Assembly (NCBI GenBank): GCA_902555695.1
Contig: CACDTV010000001.1
Coordinates: forward strand, 19,559 to 83,558
Direction of reading: 5' to 3'
Length of the DNA: 64,000 bases
Origin: an uncultured Alphaproteobacteria bacterium
Lineage (GTDB): Bacteria; Pseudomonadota; Alphaproteobacteria; HIMB59
The notes under the pieces: generated by a model
Seen by the model: the letters and a program-made list of their open reading frames with translations, nothing else
What the model was told of the DNA's origin: nothing
Database searches by the model: none
Shown here: one piece after another, positions 1 to 29,959 of the stretch
Layout of the letters: each line of letters opens with the position of its first letter
Numbering within the stretch: the first letter of the stretch is position 1
Program-made: the position numbers and the translations under genes

Positions 1-786
1 TAACGGGTTATTTTTTCCAATACCTGCAACCCACTGAATTACACCAGGAACGTTGAAATATCCTGAAATATCACCGCCTCCGTAACCTCCAGTAGTTCCC
101 CAAGCTCCAAACGACATAAAACTGTTCGCCATAGATAGGTCTTCAAAAAAACTTAAACCTCCTAAGTAATTAAATACACCAACACCAAGTGCTAAGAAAA
201 AAACAAAAAATAACCATGATTGAACAACGCTTACACTCACCATGGGTTTAAATCCACCAGATACTATATAAAATAAGACAACAGCAGTTAGTGCCCACAT
301 TGCAGAGTCTCTGGTTATTTCACCTCCGCTAATAAACTCTACAACATTACCTGTTGATCCAATAATTATACCAAGAAATGGAACAGCAAAAAATAATCCG
401 ATTATTAGTACTACAATTCTAAGAGTATTACTTTGATAATATTTATAATACATCTCTCCTGGAGTGATAAAATTAAATTTTCTACTTAACATCCACTGCC
501 TTTTAAAAAATAATATACTTCCAAGAGGAATTGTTATTACAATTGCAGCAGTAGCTAGAAAAGAGTATCCATCTGCATAAATTAATGATGGAAAAGAAAT
601 GATAGTTATGCCTGCAAATGTAGTTACTGTTGCAGAGAAAAAGAATACCCAAGGAGATACACTTCTATCTGCTAAATAGTAAGCCTCAGGGGTTTTATTT
701 TTTCTAAGAGTTCTAGCTCCCCAAAAAAGACAAAAGCTTATATAAAGGACAAGAAAGAAAAAAAACCAATAAAGATTAGCGACCAT
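1..786 (-). CDS. Sodium:solute symporter (SSS) family transporter, C-terminus truncated by window edge
   Basis: Translated by hand from the minus strand, start ATG at 786: MVANLYWFFFFLVLYISFCLFWGARTLRKNKTPEAYYLADRSVSPWVFFFSATVTTFAGITIISFPSLIYADGYSF...; multi-TM with SSS-like N-terminal motif. Missing from ORF track because it is open at the edge. Confidence 0.8.
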   Translation of the reverse strand, partial: MVANLYWFFFFLVLYISFCLFWGARTLRKNKTPEAYYLADRSVSPWVFFFSATVTTFAGITIISFPSLIYADGYSFLATAAIVITIPLGSILFFKRQWMLSRKFNFITPGEMYYKYYQSNTLRIVVLIIGLFFAVPFLGIIIGSTGNVVEFISGGEITRDSAMWALTAVVLFYIVSGGFKPMVSVSVVQSWLFFVFFLALGVGVFNYLGGLSFFEDLSMANSFMSFGAWGTTGGYGGGDISGYFNVPGVIQWVAGIGKNNPL

Positions 787-1689: not shown

Positions 1690-2079
1690 TCATACTGGGA
1701 CTCCTGATTGTCTTAGCAATTCAAATTGAACAGTAAAGTTTCTAAGATTTTGCATTAAGACTAAATGATTGCCCTCGATTTTAAGGTCTTCTCTAAATGA
1801 GGCTGCATAGATACCATGAAACATAGGTTTTGGAACAGGCTTTGCAAACTCTCTCCATGTTTGCTCTGATGCCCTTAATGCAAAGTCATATGGATCTAAA
1901 CCACCAGGGTTGGTATTAATATTTTTTACCTTTCCATCATGCATCTCGATAATTACTTTCACACTACCCATGTCGAAAAGAAATGAACAAGTATAATATT
2001 TAGCCATCGCTTTTATGGTTTCATCTTTTTCAGTAAGCTCTTTATATTTTTTTGCCCAGGATTTTACATCTATACTCAT
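1690..2079 (-). CDS. Small SCP2-like (sterol carrier protein 2-like) lipid-binding protein, tentative
   Basis: 129 aa; pattern FDMGSVKVIIEMHDGKVKNIN...DPYDFALRASEQTWREFAKPVPKPMFHGIYAA resembles the SCP2 fold; lies between flotillin and hydrolase. Confidence 0.5.
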   Translation of the reverse strand: MSIDVKSWAKKYKELTEKDETIKAMAKYYTCSFLFDMGSVKVIIEMHDGKVKNINTNPGGLDPYDFALRASEQTWREFAKPVPKPMFHGIYAASFREDLKIEGNHLVLMQNLRNFTVQFELLRQSGVPV

Positions 2080-2088
2080 GTTTTATAC

Positions 2089-4083
2089 CTACTTCTTTTT
2101 CCTGGGTGTCTTTGTGGCTTGTTCATCAAATCTCATATGCTTGTCCTTCTTAGGATCATCGTAGTCACCTAAAATATTCCTGATATTACTTGCCTCACCG
2201 GGCGACATACCAATTTCTTTTAAAAGACTATCTAAGAACGGCTGTTGTGCTCTATATCGAAGAGCAGAATTCACAACATTATCTGCTAAAGATCCTTTTT
2301 TGGAATATCCACCTGAGGACGCAGAGGGGTTATCAGCTTTGCCGCTTCCTTCAGCTCCTCCTCCTCCTCCTTGACTAAATCCAGGTAATCCATTTACATC
2401 GACAACTTTAATTGAGTCAATGTTTTGCATTGGTCTAACCCATTCTCTAATAATACCCTCAATTTTTTCAGCGAGTTTTTGTCTAAGTGCACTTCTTCTA
2501 CTTGCATCACTTCTAGCATTTTCCGCTTCATTTAGGGCTTTTTTGCCAGCTGCTTCAATTTCATATCTAATTTTCGCAGCCATCGATGCTAACTTTTCTC
2601 TCTCAGCATTTTTACTAGCGTCTATTACTCCAAGAGCTTTTGTCTTCTCAGCTTGTTCAACATCTCTAATGGTGTTGACTTTTTCCTCAGCTTCTACAGC
2701 CTTAGCGCGAGCATTTTCTTCTTCCATTTTAGTTTTTAAGACTGACTTAGATTTTTCTAGGACTTCCATTTGTTTTTGCTTTTCTTCAATTTCTATTCTT
2801 TTTGCCTTTTCAATATCTAAGACTCTTGTCTCTTGCTCAGCGGCAATTTTGAACGCATCAACATTTTTCTGTTGAGCAGTTTTTGCATTTTTAATTTGCT
2901 CCTCAGCCATAATATAAGCCTCTTCAGACTCATATCTTTTTCTAGCCTCTTCTTTTGCTGTTTGAGCTTTTTCCTCAGCAAGTTTAATATCAACTGATCT
3001 TTGTTTTTCTAGACGACTGAATTCAACATCTCTTTCCAATTCAAGAATAGTTTTTTCTGTCTCAATATCTTTCTGTTTAATCTCGATAGAAGTTTGTTGT
3101 TTAAACTCATTTTGTTCTTTTCTTCTTTTCTCAATTTCTTGGATAAGTTTAGTTTCTTGTAAACTTTTTTCCATCTCAACAAAGTCTTTCTTGCTAATCT
3201 TAGCTATCTCAATATCTTTTTCTGAGGAGATTTCAGCCAGCTCAGACTCTTTGTCTTTCTCAGCTTTTGTTTTTACTGTCTCAGTATTTTCGATAGCTCT
3301 TTGTTGTTCAATTTCACGTTTTTGTTGATACTTTGAAAATTCTTCCTCTTTTTCAATTTCAAGAGTTTGCTTGATAGATTGGAGGTTTTTATTTCGAATA
3401 CTTACCTCTGTATCTTTCTCAATATCATTTCTTTTCTTTTTACGTGACTGAGTAAATTCTGTAATTTGAGTTAAACCCTCAGCATCAAATGTATTTGAAG
3501 GGTCGAATACACCCACGGGAGCTTGGTTAAGAGATGTCAAAGACACGGTCTCTAACTCCAAACCAGTGTGCTTAATTGCTTCTTCAACATGAGATGCAAC
3601 ATTTTTAATGTACTCAGATCTATTCTCTTGAATTTCATCAAGGCTCATTTTTGCGGCAACAACACCTAATCCATCAACAAAACGACCTTGAACAAGTTCT
3701 TTTAAATGATCAGGCTCTAGTGTTCTATTTCCCAATGTTTGCGCGGCTATTGAGACAGCTTCAGTTGTAGGCGCTACTCTAACGTAGAATTCAGCGGTTA
3801 CTTCAGCCCTCATTCTATTTTTTGTGATAAAAGATTTACTTCCGTTTCGTTGAACCTCTATACAAAGAGTTTTCATACCCACTGAGGTAATGTTATGAAT
3901 AATAGGCAAAACGAAGGCACCTCCGCTGATCACAACTTGTTCACCTCCCATACCAGTTCTAACAAACGCTATTTCCTTTGAGGAACGCCTGTACAGCCAA
4001 TGTAGCAAGTAAACTATAATTGCTATTGCTAACGCTATTAAGATTATTATTGCAATAATATCTGCACCACTAGTAATGTTCAT
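2089..4083 (-). CDS. Flotillin-like SPFH/band-7 membrane scaffold protein
   Basis: N-terminal TM helix, SPFH-type domain (FVRTGMGGEQVVISGGAFVLPIIHNITSVGMKTLCIEVQR), long Glu/Lys/Ala coiled coil. Confidence 0.9.
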   Translation of the reverse strand: MNITSGADIIAIIILIALAIAIIVYLLHWLYRRSSKEIAFVRTGMGGEQVVISGGAFVLPIIHNITSVGMKTLCIEVQRNGSKSFITKNRMRAEVTAEFYVRVAPTTEAVSIAAQTLGNRTLEPDHLKELVQGRFVDGLGVVAAKMSLDEIQENRSEYIKNVASHVEEAIKHTGLELETVSLTSLNQAPVGVFDPSNTFDAEGLTQITEFTQSRKKKRNDIEKDTEVSIRNKNLQSIKQTLEIEKEEEFSKYQQKREIEQQRAIENTETVKTKAEKDKESELAEISSEKDIEIAKISKKDFVEMEKSLQETKLIQEIEKRRKEQNEFKQQTSIEIKQKDIETEKTILELERDVEFSRLEKQRSVDIKLAEEKAQTAKEEARKRYESEEAYIMAEEQIKNAKTAQQKNVDAFKIAAEQETRVLDIEKAKRIEIEEKQKQMEVLEKSKSVLKTKMEEENARAKAVEAEEKVNTIRDVEQAEKTKALGVIDASKNAEREKLASMAAKIRYEIEAAGKKALNEAENARSDASRRSALRQKLAEKIEGIIREWVRPMQNIDSIKVVDVNGLPGFSQGGGGGAEGSGKADNPSASSGGYSKKGSLADNVVNSALRYRAQQPFLDSLLKEIGMSPGEASNIRNILGDYDDPKKDKHMRFDEQATKTPRKKK

Positions 4084-4110: not shown

Positions 4111-4812
4111 TTATTGTCCATTAACTCTCATGTCTTGTATTGCTGCTTTGTAAATTATTAAACCAAAAACTATTTTATTTAAAAAGTCTGCTAAATTATA
4201 AATCACATTAACACTATTGGGGTCAATGCCTCCGCCCAAATGCTCTATGAAATATCCCATTGGATATATAGCCCATCCAATTGTAATAATAAGTCTGTTC
4301 GAGAAGAAAACCATTTGTACATTTTCGTTTCCGCATCTAGCATTTGCTCTTCCGGCCTCTCCAACATATAGCTCACCGAGGATGTACAACCATCCAGCTA
4401 ACCAAACAATGAAACCTAATGTCTTGCTCATATAACCAGCTGCACCTAAGAAACCTGCTACAACAAAAACTAAAGTTCCAACCAATAATCTCCAGAACAT
4501 GCCTTGTTTAACTTTGACAACTGACATAAGCATTGCATAAAAAATAAGCACAAGCATTGGAAAGTTAAGAAACCAATCTATATATCTTAATAAAGTCGGG
4601 GCGGTGCCGCTGACTACCCAGAGATTTTTTACGAAAAAATAATGTATAGAGGACATCAAGCATACAACAGCTATCATTGTCATCGGTGTATGAAATCTTG
4701 TGCTTACTTTGCTACGCTCAAAAAAGAAAAACAATGTGGCACCAATCATGCCAACAGAAATTAACCAGAAAGACCCCCCTACAATGTCGTAAGGGAGAAG
4801 CATTTTATTCAT
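4111..4812 (-). CDS. Proteorhodopsin-family protein, flotillin-associated rhodopsin type
   Basis: Helix C LLRYIDWFLNFPMLVLIFYAML; helix G YNLADFLNKIVFGLIIYKAA with retinal Lys; helix B His (SSIHYFF); adjacent to flotillin. Confidence 0.93.
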   Translation of the reverse strand: MNKMLLPYDIVGGSFWLISVGMIGATLFFFFERSKVSTRFHTPMTMIAVVCLMSSIHYFFVKNLWVVSGTAPTLLRYIDWFLNFPMLVLIFYAMLMSVVKVKQGMFWRLLVGTLVFVVAGFLGAAGYMSKTLGFIVWLAGWLYILGELYVGEAGRANARCGNENVQMVFFSNRLIITIGWAIYPMGYFIEHLGGGIDPNSVNVIYNLADFLNKIVFGLIIYKAAIQDMRVNGQ

Positions 4813-4935: not shown

Positions 4936-6327
4936 TTATATTTGCTCCCTAATATGGGGTGCTCTGGAGTAAAGAGCAACAAGAGGTAAAATAAGAAGAC
5001 CAAATATAAATTGCTGACCCTCAAAACTTAAGCCTAGACCTGCCAAAAATGTACTAATTACTTGCAGTGCAAGAACACCGATTACTGTAAAGCCGTATCC
5101 TCCATATCCACCTAATAAGGAAGTTCCTCCTACAGCCACAGCTGCCACTGTTAAAAATAAATATTGATCACCTACACCAATGAACCCTCCACCGCTCCAA
5201 CCCAGTAACATTGCTCCGGTTGCTGCAGAGGTAAATCCACTAATGACATAAACTCCAACCCAATATGCTCTCTCAGAAATTGACAATCTGTCAGCAGATA
5301 ACCTTTTTCCACCAACAGCATATAAATTCCTTCCCCACTTAGTGTGTCTAAGTCCAACAATTAATAAAATTGAAATCAATATCCAAATTAAAATAACTGG
5401 AGGTATTGGAAGACCAAAAAATTTTCCATTTAATGAGGCCAAATTTTTTAACCAATCTGGAACAACACCAAAAACAGTTCCACCTGTAACAGTAGGAAGT
5501 GATACCAATATCTGTACTCCACCTACTACCATGAAGCCAACTCCAAGCGTGACTATTAGTGATTGACCTTGGAGGTTAAAACTTATCAACCCATTAAAAA
5601 GCCCGACGATCGTGCCAAATGCAAGAATAACTATAAACGCAAGCCAAGGAGGAACTCCAAGTGAAATAAGTGACATTAATCCTAAATTAGTCGCTCCAAT
5701 TAAAAATGGTATTGATAAATCGAGGCCGCCTAACATCACAACTAATGTCTGTCCAATTGTTGCAATTCCTAAGAAAGAAGCAAAAACTAACATAGATTTA
5801 ATATTCTGTAATGATAAGAAGCCATCAATAGAAACTGATCCTATTATAAAAAGACCAACTAGTACGGCGACTCCTATAATTACGCTTTTGTTAATGTTTA
5901 AAAATTTGTAAGCAAGAAATGCTAAGATTAAAAAACCTAATAATATGATTGCTGATACGACTGTTCTACCTGAGAAGAACCCGGGTACCAAAAAACATAG
6001 TAATATAAAAAGGCCTAAAAGAAGTAAAAATCCCGTAACAGCTATCCAGTTCTTTGCAATGAGGTCCCAAAAAAGGCTTCTTTTACTTGTGGTTTCAGTA
6101 GTTTCAGGAGGTTTAGATCCATCTTCCTTTACTAAAGATCGATAAGACCATCTAACTAAGAAAAAATGCCAGCCCCAAAGAATAATGGCGACAACAGCTA
6201 CAGAGTAAAATGCAACCTGTATCCAATCAGTTCTATCTACATAACCAAGAACTGCAGTACCTATCCCAGCAGCAACAGCAAAAAGAATTCCAAGTCCTTT
6301 TAAAAAATTATGAGTTCTTTTCTCCAT
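4936..6327 (-). CDS. Sugar-type (RbsC-like) ABC transporter permease
   Basis: GGLDLSIPFLIGATNLG, AVGGTSLLGGYGG motifs of the BPD_transp_2 family; extra N-terminal TM region. Confidence 0.88.
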   Translation of the reverse strand: MEKRTHNFLKGLGILFAVAAGIGTAVLGYVDRTDWIQVAFYSVAVVAIILWGWHFFLVRWSYRSLVKEDGSKPPETTETTSKRSLFWDLIAKNWIAVTGFLLLLGLFILLCFLVPGFFSGRTVVSAIILLGFLILAFLAYKFLNINKSVIIGVAVLVGLFIIGSVSIDGFLSLQNIKSMLVFASFLGIATIGQTLVVMLGGLDLSIPFLIGATNLGLMSLISLGVPPWLAFIVILAFGTIVGLFNGLISFNLQGQSLIVTLGVGFMVVGGVQILVSLPTVTGGTVFGVVPDWLKNLASLNGKFFGLPIPPVILIWILISILLIVGLRHTKWGRNLYAVGGKRLSADRLSISERAYWVGVYVISGFTSAATGAMLLGWSGGGFIGVGDQYLFLTVAAVAVGGTSLLGGYGGYGFTVIGVLALQVISTFLAGLGLSFEGQQFIFGLLILPLVALYSRAPHIREQI

Positions 6328-6330
6328 TTA

Positions 6331-8604
6331 CTAAACTTTTCTATCTTCTGATAGACCTCCCCATTTTTCAAGTCCTTCTTGAGATTTTAATTTTATTTTA
6401 TAAACACCAAACGCTTGCCATATCAGAGGCGAAATAGCTATTCCAATTGCAGTAATTAAAATCATTTTCCAATAAGGATAACCAATTGCGAAGAACATCG
6501 CAGACCATGTTAATGCAGCTATACTTAAAATAGCAATGTAAGGTCTGAATCTAGCAAATGATATTTTTGCTCCCATTGTTAAATATGTAAAAAATTGAAA
6601 TACAAATATTGCAAATATAATTAGAGCTGCTTCTTTAAGCCAAGTAACATCACTTGTGATAAATTCTCCTCGTATAGGTCTTGTATAGTTGATTGATGAT
6701 GTATCGCCAACAATTAATTCTGTAATAATTGGAGAGTAAAACTTACTTCCATCATCAGTAATAATTGTTCCAGATGGTGAGGCTAAAAAGTATACAGCGA
6801 GTATTGCTAATACACCGAGGAAAATAATGAAAACATTATTCAAATTGATATTCGAAAAAAGAGTTGGTGCCGTGAGTAAAAAAAGTAAAAATAAAATTAG
6901 TATTACAGCGTATCCATCTATGCCGAAGAAACTCTGTCTATTTGACTCAATTCCGTAATAAGATATTGCAGCAAATACAATAAATGAAATTGCTATTGCA
7001 AATAATACCAATGTTTGTGTTTTGATTTCTTTTCTAAATCTTGGCATAGCAATTATTACTATCGCAGATGTAAAGAAAACTATTCCTCCTAAAGTTGCGA
7101 CAGCGTAAGCGAGGCCAACCAAAGCACTCGAGGAAGATGAAAAATCAGGCAATCCCGCACCAACTCTTAGATATTCAGATGTAAAATACTGAGGAGCATA
7201 ATTTAAAATATATTGTAAGTTGGTACCCAAATCAGCGTTAACAAAATAAGCCTCTCTCGTGCCACTCCAAACACAACCGAAGAAAATAACAATTGCTGCA
7301 ATAATAAAAGACACTGTTGGGCCATCTCTATGTTTAACAAGCAAATAGACGAGATAAATCAAGGCTGCTATTCCGATAGCAATAAACATCCACACTGTAG
7401 AATTTCCACCCTCTGCGCATGCCTTACCTGTGATTAAACAATCACTCCCGGACTCAAGAGCTTTTTCAAAAATTTCAGCATCTTTAGATTTACCTCCAAA
7501 ACCTCCCACAGTCCCTCTGGTTACTTGATCAAATTTCATATGAATTTGAACAGCAGCAGCACTTAATGTTCCAATAATAAAAAATACAAAAACTGATAAA
7601 TTTTTGAATGCTTTTTGAATATAAGGAAGCGCAATAAGTATTAAAAGAGAAGCCACCAATACCGCACCATATGATAAGTCTGTTACAAAACTTTGAAATC
7701 TTTCAAACCTAAAAGTTGATAGAATAAAATTTATCAAATAAATGTTAACTGAACCTAGAATAGCTCCAAACGCACCGCCTCTTCCACCAATTAAACTTGA
7801 CCCACCTAATACAAGTGCTGTAACTGCCATCAATGTATAAGTAGTACCTTGAGTTGGGTCTCCAGAACCAATCAAACCTGTAAAAGCAATAGCTGCGAGT
7901 GCAGCGTAAACTCCACCGATAATATGAGCACCAATTCTTACAATGTAAATTCTCACTCCACTTGTATAAGCAGACTTTTCATCTGAACCCATTAATTTTA
8001 AATGTTGCCAGTAAGCAGTATGAGTTAGTGCATACCAAATAAGTGTCGAGAAAATCAAAAGTATCAGTGTGGGTTGTACTACCTCAGTTCCAGCGCTCCA
8101 AGATAACATCCAATCAGGTGCTCTACCTCCTGGTCTTGGTAAAATAACTAAATTGATACCAGAGAAAGCAAGAAACATACTTAAGGCAACTATTATTGGT
8201 TGAACTCTAATAAAAATTACGATTAAGGCATAAAGAAATTGGTAAATTACTCCTATTGCAAGAGCACATATGAAATACGCAACTGGCGATTGAATGTAAC
8301 CTGCAGCATAAAGTTGTATTGTCGTTACATTAATAAAACCAATAAGTGGTCCTATTGATAAATCGACTGTCACTCTGCCGGCTAAAGCCAACGCAGTAAG
8401 AGCATAAGTAGCAAGAATAAGAGGTGTTGAAACCATAATTGCAGTTCCAATACCCGAGCCTGAAATTATTTGTGGTCCTCTAATCATTGCAAAAATCATT
8501 AGGGCAAAAAATATAAATATTGGAACGATTAAGTATTTTGTTGACTGGGGATCAGAACCTGGAATTTGAGAGGGTTTTATTGCTGCTACAAGTTGATTAA
8601 CCAT
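6331..8604 (-). CDS. Sugar-type ABC transporter permease with large C-terminal membrane extension (757 aa)
   Basis: N-terminal ~335 aa RbsC-like (VTVDLSIGPLIGF, LVLGGSSLIGGRGG), then ~400 aa of additional hydrophobic segments. Confidence 0.85.
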   Translation of the reverse strand: MVNQLVAAIKPSQIPGSDPQSTKYLIVPIFIFFALMIFAMIRGPQIISGSGIGTAIMVSTPLILATYALTALALAGRVTVDLSIGPLIGFINVTTIQLYAAGYIQSPVAYFICALAIGVIYQFLYALIVIFIRVQPIIVALSMFLAFSGINLVILPRPGGRAPDWMLSWSAGTEVVQPTLILLIFSTLIWYALTHTAYWQHLKLMGSDEKSAYTSGVRIYIVRIGAHIIGGVYAALAAIAFTGLIGSGDPTQGTTYTLMAVTALVLGGSSLIGGRGGAFGAILGSVNIYLINFILSTFRFERFQSFVTDLSYGAVLVASLLILIALPYIQKAFKNLSVFVFFIIGTLSAAAVQIHMKFDQVTRGTVGGFGGKSKDAEIFEKALESGSDCLITGKACAEGGNSTVWMFIAIGIAALIYLVYLLVKHRDGPTVSFIIAAIVIFFGCVWSGTREAYFVNADLGTNLQYILNYAPQYFTSEYLRVGAGLPDFSSSSSALVGLAYAVATLGGIVFFTSAIVIIAMPRFRKEIKTQTLVLFAIAISFIVFAAISYYGIESNRQSFFGIDGYAVILILFLLFLLTAPTLFSNINLNNVFIIFLGVLAILAVYFLASPSGTIITDDGSKFYSPIITELIVGDTSSINYTRPIRGEFITSDVTWLKEAALIIFAIFVFQFFTYLTMGAKISFARFRPYIAILSIAALTWSAMFFAIGYPYWKMILITAIGIAISPLIWQAFGVYKIKLKSQEGLEKWGGLSEDRKV

Positions 8605-8609
8605 TATAA

Positions 8610-10112
8610 TTAGTCAAAATAAACGACTTTGATACCCCCTCTGTCAGACTGCGATCTTCTATGACCTACTTTAAGTTTGTCTGTTTCAACAATTTTAATT
8701 CTCTTTGAGTCCAAATCAATATTTTTAGTAAAGCCATTTTTAAAAGATATCTTACTAATAAGAGTGTTTAAATTATTTTCGATATATTTAGTGTTGTGTT
8801 TACCATCTATGAAGTTTTTGTCTTTAAGAAGACAAATTAAAAAAGGGATGTTTGTCTTAATGCCCTCAATCTGAGTGCCTTCTAAAAATTTTATTAATTT
8901 GGATATAGCATCGTCTCGAATTAAGTCGTGAGATATAATTTTTCCTATCATCGGATCATAATAGAAACTTACTTCATCTCTTTCATCGTATCCCCAATCT
9001 AATCTTATGCCATTTGGTATTTTAGGAAACTTTAATTTAGTTATTTTTCCTGGAGATGGTAAGAAATTTTGAGATGGATCCTCTGCATAGACTCTGCATT
9101 CAATTGAATGTCCATAAGTTTTAATTTTATTTTGATTTAAAAATTTATTTTTTCTATTAAAAGCAAAATTTATTTGCATAGAAATTAAATCATTATTTGT
9201 CACTAACTCTGTAACAGGATGTTCAACTTGAATTCTTGTATTCATCTCAAGAAAATAATATTTCATTTCTTGAACATCATATATGAACTCTACAGTTCCG
9301 GCTCCTTCGTAATTTACATCAGAAGATAATTTTACAGCGGCTTTTGCCATATTATTTATTAATTCTCTATCTACCTCTGGTGCCGGAGACTCCTCAATTA
9401 TCTTTTGATATCTTCTTTGCATAGAGCAATCTCTTTCGAACAGATGCACAGATCCTTTTGCACCAAATCCAAAAACTTGTATCTCTATATGTCGAGCGTT
9501 GGTGATAAATTTCTCAATAAAAATATCTCCATTACCAAAAGATTTTGCAGCAAGATTACTAGTTTTTTCAATTGAATTGGCTAGGTCTTTGAAATTTTGG
9601 ACGACGCTCATGCCTATCCCCCCACCGCCAGCACTTGATTTTACAAGTAAAGGGTAGCCAATCTCTTCACATTTTGTCTTAAGTTGTTCATCACTTAATT
9701 TGTGAACATTATTTATGCCTGGACAAATAGGAATATTGGAATTTAAAGCCAATTCACGAGCAATATCCTTATTTCCCATTGATTTTATTGATTTTGGTTT
9801 TGGGCCAATCCATGTGATACCTCTGTCTATAACCTCTTGAGCAAAAGTGTCGTTTTCCGATAAAAAACCAAAACCAGGATGAATAGCATCCACATTTGAT
9901 TTTGTAGCTATTTCTAAAATCTTATTGTAAGAAAGATAACTTTCCTGAGCTTTACTAGGTCCTATATAATAAGACTCGTCAGATAATCTTACATGCTTTG
10001 AATTCTTATCTGCATCTGAATAAACAGCTACAGATTTGTGACCTAATATTTTACAACTTTTTATAATTCTATTTGCTATTTCACCGCGATTAGCAATTAA
10101 AATTTTTTTCAT
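8610..10112 (-). CDS. Biotin carboxylase (AccC-like)
   Basis: MKKILIANRGEIANRIIKSCKILG; SSAGGGGIGMS ATP-grasp; EMNTRIQVEHPVTE; no C-terminal BCCP domain. Confidence 0.92.
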   Translation of the reverse strand: MKKILIANRGEIANRIIKSCKILGHKSVAVYSDADKNSKHVRLSDESYYIGPSKAQESYLSYNKILEIATKSNVDAIHPGFGFLSENDTFAQEVIDRGITWIGPKPKSIKSMGNKDIARELALNSNIPICPGINNVHKLSDEQLKTKCEEIGYPLLVKSSAGGGGIGMSVVQNFKDLANSIEKTSNLAAKSFGNGDIFIEKFITNARHIEIQVFGFGAKGSVHLFERDCSMQRRYQKIIEESPAPEVDRELINNMAKAAVKLSSDVNYEGAGTVEFIYDVQEMKYYFLEMNTRIQVEHPVTELVTNNDLISMQINFAFNRKNKFLNQNKIKTYGHSIECRVYAEDPSQNFLPSPGKITKLKFPKIPNGIRLDWGYDERDEVSFYYDPMIGKIISHDLIRDDAISKLIKFLEGTQIEGIKTNIPFLICLLKDKNFIDGKHNTKYIENNLNTLISKISFKNGFTKNIDLDSKRIKIVETDKLKVGHRRSQSDRGGIKVVYFD

Positions 10113-10903
10113 TTCTTATCAACGATATAAGGCATTTTGGTATGATTGCCGTTTGAAGTTTTTTGTGGAATTTTTTTATCAGAGGAAATTTTTTCTCTCA
10201 GAGCCTTTAAGATTTCTACAGCATTAGGAGTGTCAGAGTGGACACAAATTGTTTCACATCCTACAACTACATCGTTTCCTTGAACAGTTTTAACTTTATT
10301 TTCATTCATTGCTCTTAAACAACGCTCCACAGCTCTATCAGTTGGATAATATTTATTTCGACCCTTGGCTATAACCAAATAACCTGTTTCATCATATTCC
10401 AAGTCAGAGTAAAATTCTCCGTAAAATTTTATTCCTCTTTCTTTGTATACTTTTTCGTGAAAAGTATTAACCATTCCGAAAATACCAACATTAAAAATTT
10501 CAGCTGCGTCAGCAATTCCATGAGCCACATCTTCCTCTTTCGCGGAGACACCATATAAAGATCCATGAGGTTTGATATGGTTTAATGGCATTCCATACTC
10601 ATCAAGAAAGGCTTTGATGGCACCAGTTTGATACATCACAAGATTTTTGATTTCATCACGTTTCATTTTCATCGGCCTTCTTCCAAATCCTACTAAGTCA
10701 GGATAGGCAGGGTGCGATCCAACTTTCACATCATATTTTTTTGCAAGCTCGACAGTTTTCCTCATTGTGTTTGGGTCTGAGGCGTGAAACCCACAGGCTA
10801 CATTAGCAGCATCTATATAAGGCATTATTTCTTCGTCATCTGCGAAGGAGTAAATACCAAAACCCTCACCCATATCGCAATTCAAATCGACCATGAATAA
10901 CAA
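10109..10903 (-). CDS. pxpA: LamB/YcsF family protein, 5-oxoprolinase subunit A-like
   Basis: VDLNCDMGEGFG...DAANVACGFHASDPNTM...KVGSHPAYPDLVGFGRR...IKPHGSLYG; start more likely MVDLNCD at 10894. Confidence 0.9.
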   Translation of the reverse strand: MLFMVDLNCDMGEGFGIYSFADDEEIMPYIDAANVACGFHASDPNTMRKTVELAKKYDVKVGSHPAYPDLVGFGRRPMKMKRDEIKNLVMYQTGAIKAFLDEYGMPLNHIKPHGSLYGVSAKEEDVAHGIADAAEIFNVGIFGMVNTFHEKVYKERGIKFYGEFYSDLEYDETGYLVIAKGRNKYYPTDRAVERCLRAMNENKVKTVQGNDVVVGCETICVHSDTPNAVEILKALREKISSDKKIPQKTSNGNHTKMPYIVDKK

Positions 10904-11041
10904 ATTCCTCTCATTTATAATTTACAGAAAATCAGGCTTTTATGTGAAAATCTTTTCCACATGTTGGAACAATTTTGCTTATATTTTTCAGAATATAGGT
11001 ATTATTATAAATACTTATATATAAGTAAGGAGGATAAAACT

Positions 11042-12202
11042 ATGACATTGCTTAAAAAGTTCATAGCTATTTTAGCTGTTAGTTTTGTCGGTGTCGCAGG
11101 TAACTTAAATGCTGACATTTTAGACGAAATTCCAGCTGATATTAGAGACTTCGTTTATAATCCTGACTTTATGGATCCTAACCAACCGCTTGGTGAAAGT
11201 GTATACAGAAATTGGAAAAGTGATAGACCACTTCCTTGGACTATCGGTTATGCAAGTTCTTACGCAGGTAATCTATGGAGAAAAGGTGTGATGGAAAGAT
11301 TGTATGGTGACTATTTACCAAAAATGAAAGCAGCAGGTATTCTTAACGATATCGTTGTTACACAATCTAACCTAAAAGACGCGGTTCAAATTCAACAAAT
11401 GAGACAGTTAACTGATCAAGGAGTTGATGGATTAATAGTCTGTTGCTCAAATCCTGTTGCATTAAATCCAACTATTGAGTATGCATACGGAAAAGGTGTT
11501 CCTACTGCATCAATGACAGGATACTTAACTTCAGAATATGCTATCAGTACATCTGTTAACTACAAATTAACCGGATATTATATTGCACAATGGTTAGCAG
11601 AAACTATTGGTGGTGAAGGTAATGTTGTTATTATGGAAGGAATTCCTGGAACATCAGCATCTGACTCACAGCACCAAGGTATGCTAGATGGATTTGCAGA
11701 ATATCCAGACATAACTGTTGTTGCTGAAATTGCACACATGTGGACACCACAAATTGCTCAAGCTGAACTTCAAAAATGGTTATCAGCTAACACAACTCAA
11801 GTTGACGGATTTGCTGTTCAGTCTTCAGGAGAGTCCGGAGCACTTAACGCTCTAGAATCATCTGGAAGACCAATGGTGCCTATGGCTTTGGGTGGAGAAA
11901 TTGGTGCATTCTGCTATTGGAGAAATAATCCAGACTTTATCGACAGAGCGGTCTATGCATGGCCTCCTGGAGATGATGCAGAGTTTGCGATGAATGTTCT
12001 TTTAAGAACTATGTATGGTCAGGGCCTTAAAATCCAGTCTATCTTAGTTCCTCCATATGAAGAAGATGTTGAGACTATTCAGTCTTTTGTTCCTGAAGAT
12101 TGTGACAGAAACTCAAGTGAGTTTAGAACTGTTGGAATTGAAAACTGGGCAAGTGATGAATATCTAAATAATTTCTTCGATCGTGGAGAAGCATTACTTT
12201 AA
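11042..12202 (+). CDS. Periplasmic sugar-type ABC substrate-binding protein
   Basis: Signal peptide MTLLKKFIAILAVSFVGVAGNLNA; AAGG AGG Shine-Dalgarno immediately upstream; the listed ORF starts 27 codons further upstream at 10961. Confidence 0.85.
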   Translation: MTLLKKFIAILAVSFVGVAGNLNADILDEIPADIRDFVYNPDFMDPNQPLGESVYRNWKSDRPLPWTIGYASSYAGNLWRKGVMERLYGDYLPKMKAAGILNDIVVTQSNLKDAVQIQQMRQLTDQGVDGLIVCCSNPVALNPTIEYAYGKGVPTASMTGYLTSEYAISTSVNYKLTGYYIAQWLAETIGGEGNVVIMEGIPGTSASDSQHQGMLDGFAEYPDITVVAEIAHMWTPQIAQAELQKWLSANTTQVDGFAVQSSGESGALNALESSGRPMVPMALGGEIGAFCYWRNNPDFIDRAVYAWPPGDDAEFAMNVLLRTMYGQGLKIQSILVPPYEEDVETIQSFVPEDCDRNSSEFRTVGIENWASDEYLNNFFDRGEALL

Positions 12203-12214
12203 TTTAAGTAATTA

Positions 12215-13999
12215 ATGAATGAAGAAAAAACTTTGGACAGTGCCCCAAACGGGAATGGGGCACAGTCTAACTCCTCTAAAGTTGGAGGGGATATTTATGT
12301 TCAAGATGCATCAAAATCCTTTGGTGTTACAAAAGCTCTAAACGGTGTAAATTTTAAAGCTAACTTTGGTGAAATCCACGCCATTGTTGGTGGTAATGGA
12401 TGTGGTAAGAGTACATTGGCAAAGGTTATTTCAGGAGTTTTACCTTTGGACAAAGGAAAGGTCTCTATTATGGGTCATTCACCCAATTCCCCAATTGAAG
12501 CCCAAAGAGTTGGCATTGCTACAGTTTTTCAAGAAGTAATGATAGCTGAAGAGGCTACTGTTTATGAAAATTTATTTATTGGATATGACTCTTTTTTTGG
12601 AAAAAAATTAGCACATCGAGATAGGGTCGAAAAAGCTGCATCTATAATGTTAGAGCTATCCGGTGAATTTGTCGATCCATATACAATAGCAAGTCAATTA
12701 TCGCTTGGTATGAAAGCTTGGATAACAATTGGTAGAGCATTTTTAAGAAATCCTAAAGTACTAATTTTAGATGAATCATCAGCTGCACTCGATTTTGACT
12801 CTACAGAAAGACTTTTTGCAAAAATGAGAACATTAAGAGATCAAGGTGCAGCAATATTTATAGTAACTCACAGAATTGCAGAGCTAGTTAGAATAAGCGA
12901 TAGAGCAACGGTTATGAGAGATGGGGTTGATGTTGGAGTTTTAGCAGGAGAGGAAATTACTGAAAAAAATCTTCTCGGACTTATGACAGGTGATAAAAAA
13001 TTTTCTACAGCATCAGAAATAAAAGCTACACCTCCAGACTCAATCTCAGATGAAATAGTTTTGTCTGCTAAAGATTTAAAAGTTTGGGACAATGGAGATG
13101 TTATTAACTTTGATCTTCCAAAAGGTGAGATACTTGGAGTCACAGGACTTGATGGGCAAGGACAAGATAATTTTGTTAAGGCTCTGGCAGGTATCGATCA
13201 ACCACTTAGCGGAGAAGTAATTGTCAAACAGTCTGATGAGGAAAGAGAAAGAACCAAGAAAGATTACACAACTGTGAATAGCTTGTTAGATGCCAAGAAA
13301 AGTGGAGTTGGATATGTATCTGGAGATAGAAAAAAAGAGGGTATTTTTCCTAACATGAGCATATATGAAAATATGGTCATACCTTTATATAAAGGAAAAC
13401 AAGCTAAAACATCAGGTGGATTTATTGGTTTTATTAAATGGATGGAATTAAACGGTATTTTTGATTGGGAAGTAGAAAGATTAAGTATTAAGACAGGTCC
13501 AAAGAATAATCTAATTACCTCATTGAGTGGGGGAAATCAGCAAAAAGTCATGATTGCCAGAGCTTTCACAACAACTCCAAAAATACTAATACTTAACGAT
13601 CCAGCGCGAGGTATTGATGTTGGTGCAAAACGAGACTTATATAAACACTTAAGAATTTTTGTAAATGAAGGTGGTACAGCGATATTTCTATCAAGTGAAC
13701 TTGAAGAATTTATAGGATTATGTCATCGAGTTTTAGTTTTTAGAGATGGGAGTATATTTGAGACATTTGAAAAAGAGGATATCAATCCAAATACTATCCT
13801 TGAGGGAATGTTTGGTCATACTCAAAAGAAATCTAATGATAATAATTTATCAAGTACGCAAAATTCAAATCAAAAAGCTAATACTAATGCAGAAATTCAA
13901 AATAAAATTATTAAACCGACTGTGCCTACAAATGTCAAAGTAGTAGATTTTACAGATAAACCTAAGAGCAAAGAAAAAATTAAAGTTAAATATTTTTAA
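12215..13999 (+). CDS. Sugar-type ABC transporter ATP-binding protein (duplicated ATPase)
   Basis: Walker A GGNGCGKST, LSLGM, second half LSGGNQQK; low-complexity N- and C-terminal tails. Confidence 0.92.
   Translation: MNEEKTLDSAPNGNGAQSNSSKVGGDIYVQDASKSFGVTKALNGVNFKANFGEIHAIVGGNGCGKSTLAKVISGVLPLDKGKVSIMGHSPNSPIEAQRVGIATVFQEVMIAEEATVYENLFIGYDSFFGKKLAHRDRVEKAASIMLELSGEFVDPYTIASQLSLGMKAWITIGRAFLRNPKVLILDESSAALDFDSTERLFAKMRTLRDQGAAIFIVTHRIAELVRISDRATVMRDGVDVGVLAGEEITEKNLLGLMTGDKKFSTASEIKATPPDSISDEIVLSAKDLKVWDNGDVINFDLPKGEILGVTGLDGQGQDNFVKALAGIDQPLSGEVIVKQSDEERERTKKDYTTVNSLLDAKKSGVGYVSGDRKKEGIFPNMSIYENMVIPLYKGKQAKTSGGFIGFIKWMELNGIFDWEVERLSIKTGPKNNLITSLSGGNQQKVMIARAFTTTPKILILNDPARGIDVGAKRDLYKHLRIFVNEGGTAIFLSSELEEFIGLCHRVLVFRDGSIFETFEKEDINPNTILEGMFGHTQKKSNDNNLSSTQNSNQKANTNAEIQNKIIKPTVPTNVKVVDFTDKPKSKEKIKVKYF
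12236..12267 (+). promoter_or_regulatory. RNA hairpin inside the 5' end of the ABC ATPase ORF
   Basis: GACaGTGCCCC-AAACGGGAAT-GGGGCACaGTC: 7-bp plus 3-bp paired arms separated by one mismatch. Confidence 0.6.
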
Positions 14000-14004
14000 A
14001 TTCA

Positions 14005-15267
14005 ATGGTTCAAGAATATAAAAATACAGATTTAGATTTATTTCAAAAAATAGATTTAACCAATCCTAAAGATGAGTTATTAAAAAAAAATAAGATAGGG
14101 TTATCGCAACAAGAAAACAATAATATAAAATTTAATTATTTAAATCACGAGATTTCAAAATTTGAAAATTTAGAGAGTCATTTATCTCAAGATAAATCAA
14201 AAAAACTTGATGATATTTTATTCTCTCAACTCGATGTTGATGATTATGCTAGTTTCAAAAATATGTATCCTCATAATATTTCTCAACCTAAATTAAATGT
14301 AAGTAAACTCTCTGTAAAAAAACATATAAACGAGGATGGCTCTTATCCCAATTTAGTTTCAAAGAATACAAAAGATAAAACCTCAGAAATATTTCAGGGA
14401 ATTTACCCTGAGCCAAAGTTTTTACCAGGTGGTGATAAGTATTTATTAATAGAATTTGGTAATGTGATGAATTTAGAATTGAACTTTAAAGCTCAGGGGC
14501 TATCAAACTTAATTAAGACAGCAAATATTAATGGAGTTTACGAAACACTCCCATGTTTTGCCTCAATGATAGTTCACTACAATCCAGATGATATCGGCTA
14601 TCAAGATTTAATTAATGAATTGAAATCATTGCTTAAAGATATGAAAGATAATGATGATACAGTTGTAAATAGCAGACTTTTTCATTTCCCGACTGTCTAT
14701 CTTGACAAATGGACTAAAGAAGCAATTGAAGACTATATAGCTAAAATCACAATGAAAAAGCCAGATCCTGAGTTCATCACAGAGTTAAATCAATTAGATG
14801 ATGTTAATCATTTTGTTAGAGTTCACTCTGGAACTGAGTATTGGGTGGCTTCGCTTGGTTTTTGGCCTGGTTTACCATTTACAATGCCTCTTGACCCTAG
14901 GTGCAAATTAACCGCTCCAAAGTATAACCCACCTAGAACATGGACACCAAAAGGAACTGTGGGCATGGGAGGATCGTCCACAGCTATTTATCCTGATAGG
15001 CTACCTGGGGGTTATCAAATTTTTGGCAGAACGCCTGTACCCATTTGGGATCCTGACAAGAATTTTGATGTTTTCAAAGATAGTATTTGTCTATTTAGGC
15101 CAGGAGATAGAATTAAATTTGTGCCTTGTGATTATGATGAGTTTGAAATGATTGAAAAAAAAGTTGAAGATAAATCATATCGATATGATTTAATTGAAGA
15201 GCATAAATTTTCCATCAAAAAATATAAAAACTGGTTGTCTAAACTAGATTATAATAAGAAGTTTTAG
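14005..15267 (+). CDS. pxpB: PxpB/KipI (AHS1) family protein with ~135-aa N-terminal extension
   Basis: KipI-like portion starts near FLPGGDKYLLIEFGN; VHSGTEYWVASLGFWPGLPF, PRTWTPKGTVGMGGSSTAIYP...GGYQIFGRTP. Confidence 0.87.
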   Translation: MVQEYKNTDLDLFQKIDLTNPKDELLKKNKIGLSQQENNNIKFNYLNHEISKFENLESHLSQDKSKKLDDILFSQLDVDDYASFKNMYPHNISQPKLNVSKLSVKKHINEDGSYPNLVSKNTKDKTSEIFQGIYPEPKFLPGGDKYLLIEFGNVMNLELNFKAQGLSNLIKTANINGVYETLPCFASMIVHYNPDDIGYQDLINELKSLLKDMKDNDDTVVNSRLFHFPTVYLDKWTKEAIEDYIAKITMKKPDPEFITELNQLDDVNHFVRVHSGTEYWVASLGFWPGLPFTMPLDPRCKLTAPKYNPPRTWTPKGTVGMGGSSTAIYPDRLPGGYQIFGRTPVPIWDPDKNFDVFKDSICLFRPGDRIKFVPCDYDEFEMIEKKVEDKSYRYDLIEEHKFSIKKYKNWLSKLDYNKKF

Positions 15268-16236
15268 ATGTTTGAAGTTATTAAACAAGGACTAGAAACA
15301 TCAGTGCAAGATTATCCCGGGAGAGTTGGTTATCTTAACCAAGGGTTTCCTCCCTCAGGGCCAATGGATAGTTGGTCTTTTCGACTTGCCAATTTACTTG
15401 TAGGTAATGAGGAGAGCTTTGCAGCGCTTGAGTGTCAGTACACTGGTCCAACTTTAAAATTTGAAAAAGATCATGTCATTGCAGTCTGTGGTGCTGATAT
15501 GCAGCCCAAAATAAATGGTAATTCTATTCCTATGTGGGAGAGTGTTTTAATAAAATCTGGACAAACTCTTGAAATGGGTTTTACAGTATCTGGTGCAAGA
15601 TCTTATGTGTCTTTTGCTGGAGGCATTGAGTCAGAAAAATGGCTAAACTCTCAATCAACTTTTCACAAAGCAGGCGTTGGTGGCATTGATGGTCATGCTT
15701 TGAAAGACGGTCAAAGAATTCCTTTAGGTCAAGCTAATGGGAAGATCGGTAGAAAAATTAGAACTGACTCAATTCCAGAGATTAGCAATAGTGGTATTTG
15801 GGAAATTGAGGTTGTTCGGGGACCAAATGATGATTGGCTTGACGACGAAGGATATGACACTTTTCTTAAAGCAGAGTGGAAACTTCAAGCAAGAAGTGAT
15901 CGTACTGGATTTAGGTTGGATGGACCCACTTTAAGTTTTACCGAAAAAGCTACAAATAAATCTCCTGAACATGGCTATGAACCCTCAAATATAATAGATC
16001 AGGGCTACCCAATAGGTGGTATTAATTTGGCTGGTCAAACGCCAATAATACTTGTAAATGATGGGCCTAGCATGGGTGGGTTTATTGTACCTTTTACTGT
16101 TCCATCAGCCTCTTTTTGGAAATTAGGACAAGCTAAACCAAATGAAAAATTTAAGTTTAAAGAAATAAGTGTGCAAGAGGCACAGGAAATGAGATCTGAA
16201 CAAACCTCCATCTGCTCAATGGGAAGTGTCATATAA
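15268..16236 (+). CDS. pxpC: PxpC/KipA (AHS2) family biotin-dependent carboxyltransferase-like protein
   Basis: GLETSVQDYPGRVGYLNQGFPPSGPMDSWSFRLANLLVGN; typical AHS2 start, directly follows AHS1 gene. Confidence 0.9.
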   Translation: MFEVIKQGLETSVQDYPGRVGYLNQGFPPSGPMDSWSFRLANLLVGNEESFAALECQYTGPTLKFEKDHVIAVCGADMQPKINGNSIPMWESVLIKSGQTLEMGFTVSGARSYVSFAGGIESEKWLNSQSTFHKAGVGGIDGHALKDGQRIPLGQANGKIGRKIRTDSIPEISNSGIWEIEVVRGPNDDWLDDEGYDTFLKAEWKLQARSDRTGFRLDGPTLSFTEKATNKSPEHGYEPSNIIDQGYPIGGINLAGQTPIILVNDGPSMGGFIVPFTVPSASFWKLGQAKPNEKFKFKEISVQEAQEMRSEQTSICSMGSVI

Positions 16237-19667: not shown

Positions 19668-20831
19668 GTGAAAGCGTTTCAATTCAACACTACTCCTGGA
19701 ATAAGATTTGGAAGTGACTATTCAGTAAGCACAGCAGAGGAAGTTTCTAAAAAACTTGGTAACAAAATACTATTTGTAACTGATCCGGGTTTAGTAAAAA
19801 TTGGGTTACACGAAAAAACAATTAATGAGCTTAAAAAATACTCTGAAATTTTAATTTTTGATAATGTTGAAGCTGACCCATCTATAAAAACACTTATGAA
19901 TTGTGTAGAACAGGGAAGAGATTTTGATGCAACAGGTGTAATAGGATTTGGTGGTGGATCATCAATGGACGTATCGAAATTAACTGCACTTTTGATTGGT
20001 TCAAACGAAAATATTCATGAGGCTTGGGGAGTGGCTAATGCTAAAGGGCCTAGGCTCCCTCTTGCCCTTTACCCAACAACTTCTGGTACTGGTTCTGAAG
20101 TAACTCCAATTTCTATTATCACACAAGAAGATTTAGAAAAAAAAGGAGTTTCCTCTCCTATTATACTTCCAGACCTTGCAATTCTTGATCCATCATTAAC
20201 ACTCGGTCTTCCCCCTCACATTACTGCTGCTACCGGTATTGATGCAATGGTCCACGCGATAGAGTCTTATGCTTCAAAAAGTGTGAATAATAATTTGATC
20301 TCTCAAACACTCGCAAAGGAAGCATTGAAGCTTTTAGGTAGTTCTATAAGACAAGCTGTTTTAAACGGAAAGGATATTAAAGCAAGATCAAAAATGCTTG
20401 TTGGCTCTATGCTAGCAGGTGTCTCATTTGGAAACTCTCCAGTTGCTGGCGTTCATGCTTTGGCATATCCGATTGGAGGCACTTATCATGTCCCTCATGG
20501 TCTTTCCAACGCACTTGTCCTGCCATATGTGTTAAGATTTAATATATCTGATCAAAATGCATCAAAACTGTACAGTGAAATAGCCCCAATTGTTTTTCCA
20601 GATATTGACACAAGCACCAGCACTCAAGATATTTCTTCAAAATTCATTGAAAAGTTGTCAGATCTATCAAGCGAATTAGGTTTAGAACAAAGATTAAGAG
20701 ATCTCGAAATCCCTGAAACTGCATGCGAAACAATGGCTAGAGATGCAATGAAGCAAACCCGATTACTAATCAATAATCCAAGAGAAATATCTGAAAAAGA
20801 TGCTTTTGATATTTATAGGTCTGCATGGTAG
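19668..20831 (+). CDS. Iron-containing alcohol dehydrogenase (GTG start)
   Basis: GFGGGSSMDVSKLTALL, PTTSGTGSEVTP, HALAYPIGGTYHVPHGLSNALVLP. Confidence 0.92.
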   Translation: MKAFQFNTTPGIRFGSDYSVSTAEEVSKKLGNKILFVTDPGLVKIGLHEKTINELKKYSEILIFDNVEADPSIKTLMNCVEQGRDFDATGVIGFGGGSSMDVSKLTALLIGSNENIHEAWGVANAKGPRLPLALYPTTSGTGSEVTPISIITQEDLEKKGVSSPIILPDLAILDPSLTLGLPPHITAATGIDAMVHAIESYASKSVNNNLISQTLAKEALKLLGSSIRQAVLNGKDIKARSKMLVGSMLAGVSFGNSPVAGVHALAYPIGGTYHVPHGLSNALVLPYVLRFNISDQNASKLYSEIAPIVFPDIDTSTSTQDISSKFIEKLSDLSSELGLEQRLRDLEIPETACETMARDAMKQTRLLINNPREISEKDAFDIYRSAW

Positions 20832-25165: not shown

Positions 25166-26119
25166 TTATTTGATTTCTCCAATTTCAAACTTCATTTGAT
25201 GTTTATAAATTTGTAATGGGTTTAATTGCGTTGAAGGAAATTTTCGATTATTGGGTGCGTTTGGAAAACCCTGAGTTTCAAAACACATACCTTGATATTT
25301 TTTAATTTTAATACGATTACTGGAATATTTTAAATGCTGACCAGTATAAAATTGAACACCAGGTTGATTTGAAAAAATTTTTAGGGATATATTGCTTTTT
25401 GGTGATTGTATTTTAGCTATAAACTTAGAATTCTTTTTTATAATGAAATTTTCATCAAATCCCTTGAATTTATTAGTAAATTTATCGCGTATCCTAGTTG
25501 ATTTTTTAAAATCAAAACGTGTTCCTTTTACATTCATTACCCTACCAGTAGGTATATTTTCAGAGTCATTTTCTAAGTACTGATTTGAATTGATTTGGAC
25601 GTGGTGATCAAAAATATCTTTTTTAATTTTATCTAAATTCCAATAGGCGTGATTTACCAAATTAACGTGGGTAGTTTTTGATGTTTGTGCACTTATATTG
25701 ATTTTGAGAGTCGAATTTGCAATTGAGTAATCACAACTAGAATATAATTCTCCTGGGAAACCCTGATCTTTATCTGGTGATATACAATAATAGCTAATAT
25801 GAGATTTGGAGAAGCTCTTAACTTGCCAAATTTTTGAGTCAAACCCTTTTTTACCACCATGTAGTATATTTTTTCCCTCATTTCTAGTTAATTTGTATTT
25901 TACTCCTTTGATCTGAAATTGAGCTTTTTTTATTCTATTTGCATACCTGCCACATGTTGCGCCTAAGTAGTTTTTATTATTTTTATATGATGAGATATTT
26001 CCTAAATTTAGAATTAAATTGATTTTTTTCTTTTTATAAAAAACTTCAAATAATGTTGCACCAATATTGAGAGTCTTAACTCTTAAAAACTTATTTTCAA
26101 TTGTGTGTGATTTAATCAT
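25166..26119 (-). CDS. galM: Aldose 1-epimerase
   Basis: LGATCGRYANRIKKAQF; NLVNHAYWNL; GVQFYTGQHL. Confidence 0.88.
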   Translation of the reverse strand: MIKSHTIENKFLRVKTLNIGATLFEVFYKKKKINLILNLGNISSYKNNKNYLGATCGRYANRIKKAQFQIKGVKYKLTRNEGKNILHGGKKGFDSKIWQVKSFSKSHISYYCISPDKDQGFPGELYSSCDYSIANSTLKINISAQTSKTTHVNLVNHAYWNLDKIKKDIFDHHVQINSNQYLENDSENIPTGRVMNVKGTRFDFKKSTRIRDKFTNKFKGFDENFIIKKNSKFIAKIQSPKSNISLKIFSNQPGVQFYTGQHLKYSSNRIKIKKYQGMCFETQGFPNAPNNRKFPSTQLNPLQIYKHQMKFEIGEIK

Positions 26120-26125
26120 TAATGA

Positions 26126-28758: not shown

Positions 28759-28792
28759 TTAATGAAAATTAAGTCTAGAGGAATTATTGTAA

Positions 28793-29950: not shown

Positions 29951-29959
29951 AAATATGAA

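Follow-up and report, generated by a model that had tools for sequence, protein, structure and literature searches.

What does an opsin that lacks the carboxylate proton donor of a pump do beside a flotillin gene, and does it still need retinal? Both questions are raised by a gene of an uncultured HIMB59 alphaproteobacterium, carried on a stretch of 64,000 nucleotides (the window, by which we mean the whole of the DNA analysed). An earlier note, made from the letters of the sequence, had read this gene as a flotillin-associated rhodopsin (FArhodopsin, FAR). FArhodopsins were defined by Haro-Moreno et al. in 2023, who give DNI as the HIMB59 motif, leave the function of the family open and report none in cultured marine genomes (PMC10308929).

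The window opsin and its family

Read in frame from the minus-strand ATG at 4812, codons 4578-4576 (gat), 4566-4564 (aac) and 4545-4543 (att) encode Asp79, Asn83 and Ile90 of the opsin. In a MAFFT alignment with proteorhodopsins, from which all GPR position numbers used here are taken, these residues correspond to GPR 97, 101 and 108. The reading frame and codon coordinates given by the earlier note proved exact on re-reading, and its alignment by eye had arrived at the same three positions. The protein scores 110.5 bits against the type-1 rhodopsin domain PF01036 (cut-off 24.6), has Leu at GPR 105 and Ala in place of Glu142, and retains His75, Arg94, Asp227, Asn230 and Lys231, the last of which is the Schiff-base lysine and Lys213 of the window opsin. 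As had been claimed, the lysine is present and the proton-donor carboxylate missing, Asn101 and Ile108 replacing the corresponding residues of the DTE triad. DNI is one of the three motifs (DTT, DTL and DNI) that replace DTE in FArhodopsins, and the note's mention of it as a recorded motif agrees with the 2023 paper (PMC10308929). As D-N-I/V is fixed in 17 of 17 distinct HIMB59-type sequences of the alignment, the motif reflects neither chance nor an assembly error.

Among solved chains, 9r23 and 9r21 come closest to the window opsin; each bears the name flotillin-associated rhodopsin, and 9r21 shares 58% identity with the window opsin over the whole length. In a maximum-likelihood tree, the FArhodopsins form one clade that is nested among proteorhodopsins and distinct from the pumps, with support of 99/97 for lysine-bearing and lysine-less members together and of 90/83 for the lysine-bearing members by themselves; the lysine-less opsins sit on long branches. 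The phylogenetic check that had been suggested consequently places the window opsin inside the FAR clade and outside the canonical pumps. Of the contigs that have a name, the nearest belong to single-cell genomes under the label uncultured Alphaproteobacteria. Together with the flotillin neighbour and a DTE pump elsewhere in the genome (see below), the identity to 9r21 and the position in the tree identify the window gene, by sequence, as a FArhodopsin derived from proteorhodopsin.

Protein and motif are already known, since a FArhodopsin with DNI is the published HIMB59 type. The HIMB59 FArhodopsin described in the 2023 paper shares with the window not only DNI and the adjacent flotillin, but also an N terminus shorter by 23 residues, a canonical pump elsewhere in the genome and an island-like cluster that includes SCP2-type, symporter, PxpA and biotin carboxylase genes (PMC10308929).

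A canonical pump in the same genome

The genome to which the window belongs (1.08 Mb, 37 contigs, 71% complete) contains one other PF01036 gene (L001, contig C11), and this is the second, canonical proteorhodopsin that the earlier note had advised looking for: it carries DTE and Gln105 and lies beside carotenoid genes, on the same contig as Blh, the retinal-forming dioxygenase (PF15461). The pump is 49% identical to the window opsin and adjoins carotenoid genes rather than flotillin. It has 255 amino acids against the 233 of the window opsin, whose N terminus is about 23 residues shorter (a 23-column gap in the alignment). The pump and Med12 (4jq6) share with the window opsin the fold family, Lys231, Asp97, Arg94 and Asp227; unlike it, they have Thr101, Glu108 and an open pocket (Val102/Met134/Gly138/Gly155).

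A DTE pump and Blh in the same genome, with Lys231 and the counterions kept in the window opsin, would suit the hypothesis put forward in the 2023 paper, namely that FArhodopsins are helpers of proteorhodopsin (PMC10308929). In such a scheme, a retinal-binding FArhodopsin would form a heterocomplex with the pump in a flotillin raft and so widen the range of light harvesting to dim water. The same source reports an abundance in the lower photic zone, which fits, as well as recruitment of the DNI-type HIMB59 FArhodopsins in the upper photic zone, which does not (PMC10308929). Further evidence against this hypothesis comes from the neighbouring genes, the pocket and the lysine-less orthologues described below.

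A candidate statement that six genomes with lysine-bearing FArhodopsins (G140, G160, G123, G138, G001 and G004) are without proteorhodopsin was discarded as too risky: in G000 and G111 the pump gene is a near neighbour of Blh, so that a single gap in an assembly would take out the two together.

The gene cluster around the opsin

The features of the cluster are collected in Table 1.

Table 1. Features of the FArhodopsin gene cluster (window coordinates)
Feature	Position	Strand	Basis or remark
Sodium:solute symporter, N-terminal part	1..786	-	continues on contig C1 beyond the left edge of the window
Alpha/beta hydrolase, 287 aa	801..1664	-	76-88% identical to the copies in SAR11 and Rhizobiaceae
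129-aa conserved protein, after flotillin	1690..2079	-	64-79% identical across clusters
Flotillin, 664 aa, SPFH/Band_7 + Flot	2089..4083	-	Pfam domains
FArhodopsin (opsin), 233 aa, ATG start	4111..4812	-	ORF list, PF01036 match, MAFFT alignment
ABC importer permease 1 (BPD_transp_2)	4936..6327	-	directly upstream of the opsin
ABC importer permease 2 (BPD_transp_2), long C-terminal membrane extension	6331..8604	-	Pfam
Biotin carboxylase subunit, urea-carboxylase/AccC-like	8610..10112	-	profile matches
PxpA / LamB-YcsF 5-oxoprolinase-type subunit	10109..10903	-	profile matches
Periplasmic substrate-binding protein of the importer (Peripla_BP_4)	10961..12202	+	47-52% identity to its counterparts in lysine-less clusters
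ABC importer ATPase, two ABC domains	12215..13999	+	Pfam
PxpB- and PxpC-like (KipI/KipA) genes	14005..16236	+	profile matches
Iron-containing alcohol dehydrogenase (Fe-ADH)	19668..20831	+	53-55% identical to Fe-ADH of lysine-less clusters

That flotillin lies next door, as the earlier note had it, was readily confirmed: the Band_7 and Flot gene starts 27 nt downstream of the opsin on the same strand, behind the ribosome-binding site AGGAGGTG, and flotillin adjoins the opsin in all FAR-bearing loci that are long enough. The gene after flotillin is annotated with an SCP2-like sterol-carrier domain in the 2023 paper (PMC10308929), an assignment that we could not support, the 129-aa protein having no Pfam, NCBIfam or PDB match. 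The alpha/beta hydrolase is the best-conserved cluster member (86-88% in SAR11), homologues of the sodium symporter occur in SAR11 and in the lysine-less clusters, and a homologue of permease 1 (51-58% identical) stands directly upstream of the lysine-less opsins. A promoter scan gave no excess over shuffles.

Several further features were recorded. Permease 2 has 757 aa, of which BPD_transp_2 covers residues 64-319; what remains extends the protein by a long hydrophobic stretch that matches nothing in Pfam. The split urea-carboxylase-like set (8610-10903 and 14005-16236), not found in the rhizobial clusters, flanks a divergent importer promoter region. On contig C1 to the left of the window, a 784-aa protein (L081:15402-18184) carries an N,N-dimethylformamidase beta-subunit C-terminal domain, and its 142-aa partner is likely the small subunit; the pair is conserved with SAR11 FAR clusters, the large subunit at 74-77%. 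A sugar/inositol-like catabolic cluster occupies 25166-31417 of the window (aldose epimerase, aldolase, IolB-like, kinase, oxidoreductase and succinate-semialdehyde dehydrogenase genes), and a further ABC importer lies at about 35.8-40.5 kb.

Conservation of the cluster across HIMB59, SAR11 and the order

The window cluster and the SAR11 loci have in common an island of FAR-associated genes, comprising the opsin, flotillin, the 129-aa protein, the alpha/beta hydrolase, the dimethylformamidase-like subunits, the sodium symporter, an AttM-type lactonase and Fe-ADH. Permease 1 is found directly upstream of the opsin in HIMB59 and a sister family (L102, L103), and no importer homologue was found within 10 kb upstream of the opsin in the SAR11 loci.

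Within the order of the window's genome, FArhodopsins are carried by 40 of 162 genomes, a count over incomplete and related assemblies. Cluster-type flotillin is present in all 40, and two more genomes have flotillin fragments with no FAR hit; the cluster AttM is present in 38 of the 40, and four genomes with AttM, one of them with a flotillin fragment, lack a FAR hit. AttM exceeded its curated cut-off in each of the nine FAR genomes tested and was absent from two FAR-free congeners. Both FAR and flotillin are absent from same-genus genomes such as G111, which is 99% complete, a distribution that makes the cluster island-like. Judged by gene order and identity, the neighbourhood of the FArhodopsins is conserved. 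In our search for a viral origin, neither phage records nor IMG/VR yielded a FArhodopsin and there was no PHROG match; a profile scan across viral contigs contributed a single locus. As a separate observation, the viral contig L176 (IMGVR_UViG_3300046323_000337) encodes a proteorhodopsin-like protein that is 42% identical to the pump of the window's genome.

A possible link to lactone catabolism

The lactonase of the window's genome (C1:13808-14758) scores 427 bits against the AttM/BlcC equivalog NF045700, above its cut-off of 390, and the Fe-ADH reaches 217 bits against the 4-hydroxybutyrate dehydrogenase NF058672, below the cut-off of 500. A succinate-semialdehyde dehydrogenase (TIGR01780, over cut-off) lies 9 kb beyond Fe-ADH, inside the sugar/inositol-like cluster. 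In Agrobacterium, blcABC (attKLM) converts gamma-butyrolactone to 4-hydroxybutyrate and succinic semialdehyde (PMC5924552). The FAR cluster resembles this system in its AttM/BlcC-type lactonase over the curated cut-off and its Fe-ADH and, in the plasmid versions described below, in an IclR regulator and a semialdehyde dehydrogenase as well; to this set it adds the ABC importer, flotillin, opsin, SCP2-like protein and hydrolase. A further difference is that the FAR-cluster Fe-ADH matches its family below cut-off.

The lactone reading draws on one curated equivalog, AttM. AttM passes its cut-off and Fe-ADH fails, while PxpA/B/C and biotin carboxylase would suit an amide or a lactam. On these grounds we propose that the substrate is a small compound resembling a lactone, a lactam or a hydroxy acid, and the profile matches suggest the lactone type. 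The main text of the 2023 paper makes no mention of lactonase, ABC transporter, rhizobia or butyrolactone (PMC10308929), and as far as that text allows us to judge, the linkage of FArhodopsins to AttM and the importer is new.

The retinal pocket

In 51 distinct pump-type opsins, Val102, Met134, Gly138, Glu142 and Trp197 are invariant and position 155 is Gly in 47. All 34 distinct lysine-bearing FArhodopsins fetched have Phe102, Phe or Trp134 and Ala142, and every one of them has either Glu/Gln138 or Trp155. Position 138 is Glu in one HIMB59 subclade (L031-L034) and Gln in SAR11 and relatives; the window's subclade combines Gly138 with Trp155. The window opsin thereby presents bulky residues at three pocket sites (Phe84, Phe116 and Trp137, GPR 102, 134 and 155). 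GPR 134, 138 and 155, which we take to be BR M118, G122 and S141, presumably line the beta-ionone end of retinal. Summed over 14 pocket positions, side-chain volume in the window opsin exceeds that of the pump in its own genome by 266 Å3, in the clade with the highest values, compared with +146 to +201 Å3 in other SAR11/HIMB59-type FArhodopsins, +65 Å3 in 9r21 and -4 to +34 Å3 in other proteorhodopsins. The retinal pocket of the window opsin accordingly looks plugged as far as its residues tell. That this argument is drawn from sequence, and that AlphaFold2 on 25 FAR sequences returned a poor model (mean pLDDT 54.7, pTM 0.52), counts against a retinal-free reading.

The chains 9r21 and 9r23 belong to the same FAR clade as the window opsin and keep the lysine; 9r21 has Thr101, His102, Met108, Met134, Glu138 and Gly155 where the window opsin has Asn101, Phe102, Ile108, Phe134, Gly138 and Trp155. 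The two chains differ from each other only at GPR 102 (His/Val) and 138 (Glu/Gly). Because Val102 and Gly138 of 9r23 are pump residues and Glu138 is natural in FArhodopsins, 9r23 is probably an engineered, unplugged variant. Because the sister subclade, the outgroup and 9r21 have E138/G155 or Q138/G155, the simplest course for the window lineage would be loss of a plug at 138 and gain of another at 155. Since the plug has moved, with G138 and W155 replacing E138 and G155, the blockage seems to have been maintained rather than to have decayed. The Trp155 subclade and the plug swap are new in the present analysis.

All lysine-bearing FArhodopsins keep Lys231, Arg94, Asp227 and Asp97, with one D97E (L046 from Pelagibacteraceae AG-319-F18, the only Glu97 among the lysine-bearing sequences fetched). 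Retention of these four residues after loss of the pump motifs is what one would expect of a light sensor or slow-photocycle opsin that holds retinal in an altered pocket and does not pump. We consider this unlikely, given a cluster without a transducer, retinal sites crowded by Phe102, Phe134 and Trp155, and DTT relatives that bound no retinal in E. coli, as cited in the 2023 paper (PMC10308929).

Orthologues lacking the Schiff-base lysine

Lysine-less FArhodopsins from freshwater are reported in the 2023 paper (PMC10308929); lysine-less orthologues in cultured, non-streamlined bacteria are new in the present analysis. A random phylum sample, in which the natural source of 9r21 was not found, exposed the first of them in G352 (3.8 Mb, 100% complete), where an opsin with R94P, D97G, E108T, G138R and K231R (L125) sits between homologues of permease 1 and flotillin. 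Further cases were found in G1041, G1123, G1077, G1099 and G1065, near-complete alphaproteobacterial genomes being among the carriers. Four more are plasmid-borne, in rhizobia of soil and sea: Hoeflea sp. IMCC20628, Martelella sp. AD-3, Pararhizobium gei and Shinella sp. PSBB067. In all ten lysine-less opsins, Lys231 is replaced by Arg or Leu, Asp97 by Gly or Thr, and position 138 is Arg; Arg94 is lost in seven. Their summed pocket volume is not clearly raised.

The Hoeflea, Martelella and Pararhizobium plasmids share one gene order: IclR regulator, 129-aa protein, alpha/beta hydrolase, AttM lactonase, binding protein, ATPase, permease 2, permease 1, opsin, flotillin, small protein, sodium-symporter-like protein and Fe-ADH, to which the Martelella cluster adds a semialdehyde dehydrogenase adjacent to Fe-ADH. 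Identity to the window copies is 64-67% for the 129-aa protein and 76-78% for the alpha/beta hydrolase, and the plasmid AttM lactonases are 55-65% identical. The permease-1 and flotillin trees split in the same way as the opsin tree. The alignments place the loss of Lys231 and Asp97 within orthologous clusters, and as the neighbouring genes persist where the Schiff-base lysine and counterion have been lost, the opsin would have a role without need for retinal in these lineages. The caution of the earlier note that some FArhodopsins may not bind retinal is strengthened by these orthologues and by the pocket residues.

The search for other opsins and for Blh covered the six lysine-less genomes. 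In G352, G1041, G1123, G1099 and G1065 it yielded neither a further opsin above the PF01036 cut-off nor Blh; in G1077 there is a partial match to Blh where a contig ends, so that Blh is lacking in five of the six. Orthologous clusters hence persist in near-complete genomes without pump or Blh, around opsins without Lys231 and Asp97, and their conserved partners are importer and catabolic genes rather than phototrophy genes. These findings and the bulky residues filling the pocket make the proteorhodopsin-helper hypothesis improbable in our judgement.

Lys231 might alternatively form a Schiff base with a smaller aldehyde or a carotenoid product, the opsin then being a chemoreceptor or carrier. 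The lysine-bearing clade retains lysine and counterions as a set, Asp97 being absent in 10 of 10 lysine-less opsins, and the clusters contain alcohol-oxidising enzymes and, in Martelella, the semialdehyde dehydrogenase, all of which would agree with such a ligand; the same neighbours are nevertheless kept by the lysine-less members, and we hold this proposal to be quite unlikely.

Selection and gene exchange

The ratio omega for FAR between the window's genome and its congeners was 0.01-0.05 in pairs with measurable dS, several pairs being synonymously saturated; for proteorhodopsin in the same genome pairs it was 0.03-0.16. These values place the FAR gene under purifying selection and not in decay. 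A functionless, decaying paralogue, which the loss of proton-donor and pocket residues could bring to mind, is contradicted by such omega values over many synonymous changes, by 97-100% identity of the FAR protein across many species-level genomes and by the strict flotillin linkage, and is very improbable.

Proteorhodopsin distances among HIMB59 congeners do not track those of FAR (one pair with 96% proteorhodopsin and 90% FAR identity, another with 74% and 91%). Because the two distances are very different in some pairs, horizontal exchange of FAR, proteorhodopsin or both is likely.

A possible role for the opsin and its neighbours

Taken together, we lean slightly towards a light-independent accessory protein of opsin fold that serves a flotillin-organised module for uptake and lactone catabolism. 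With Ile in place of the donor Glu108, the opsin would no longer be a proton pump, and with Phe102, Phe134 and Trp155 filling the cavity it would most likely carry no retinal; the residues of the window opsin point in that direction. It would instead sit in the membrane as a partner of the flotillin and ABC importer encoded next to it, coupled to them in function as their linkage suggests, and the three would constitute a microdomain-based uptake and catabolic module in which flotillin and opsin organise the importer in the membrane. This module, with its binding protein, two permeases, ATPase, sodium symporter, AttM-type lactonase, alpha/beta hydrolase and Fe-alcohol dehydrogenase, would import and open a small lactone-, lactam-, amide- or hydroxy-acid-like compound. 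The opsin's own part could, as a guess, be that of a scaffold, a flotillin-recruiting anchor or a ligand sensor. Because relatives without the lysine keep the same uptake and breakdown neighbours, its job is probably not related to light, and retinal independence would extend by parsimony to the lysine-bearing clade, where plug residues would be maintained by exchange.

Two observations weigh against a retinal-free opsin beyond the limits of the pocket argument. Retinal is available in the window's genome through Blh, and the whole Lys-Asp-Arg-Asp set is kept, which argues for a retained interaction in lysine-bearing FArhodopsins, possibly a Schiff base, or else a Lys-Asp salt bridge. The summed pocket volume of the lysine-less opsins, not clearly raised, and their long branches in the tree also speak against our reading. 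The SAR11 opsins, with no importer homologue in the 10 kb upstream, count against the module, as do the single curated equivalog behind the lactone substrate and the Fe-ADH score below cut-off. For FArhodopsins as a whole, we propose more tentatively, and at somewhat less than even confidence, that they are a non-photoreceptor, retinal-free part of flotillin-organised import and lactone/hydroxy-acid catabolism in streamlined HIMB59, SAR11 (there without adjacent importer) and Rhizobiaceae plasmids, in which exchangeable plugs hold the former retinal cavity shut and some lineages have given up lysine and counterion altogether.

If the module reading holds, an opsin would have been put to a new use in organising the membrane or taking up solutes, and counting FAR genes in metagenomes would be no measure of light use. 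The conserved ABC-importer/lactonase module has lysine-less carriers outside streamlined plankton; the plasmid-borne ones in cultured Hoeflea, Martelella and Pararhizobium make FArhodopsin function testable by ordinary gene deletion, and near-complete relatives without the retinal-forming enzyme likewise bring the question within reach of experiment.

Flotillin within importer operons seems to be a wider theme. Variovorax and Yoonia flotillins were considered as FAR carriers and rejected, no opsin being adjacent. These related flotillins lie directly behind ABC importer genes on plasmids (L178:8082-10617 in Variovorax, L179:8093-12396 in Yoonia), in catabolic operons with a PEP-hydrolase-like gene at the opsin's place, and the Yoonia flotillin ORF is very long.
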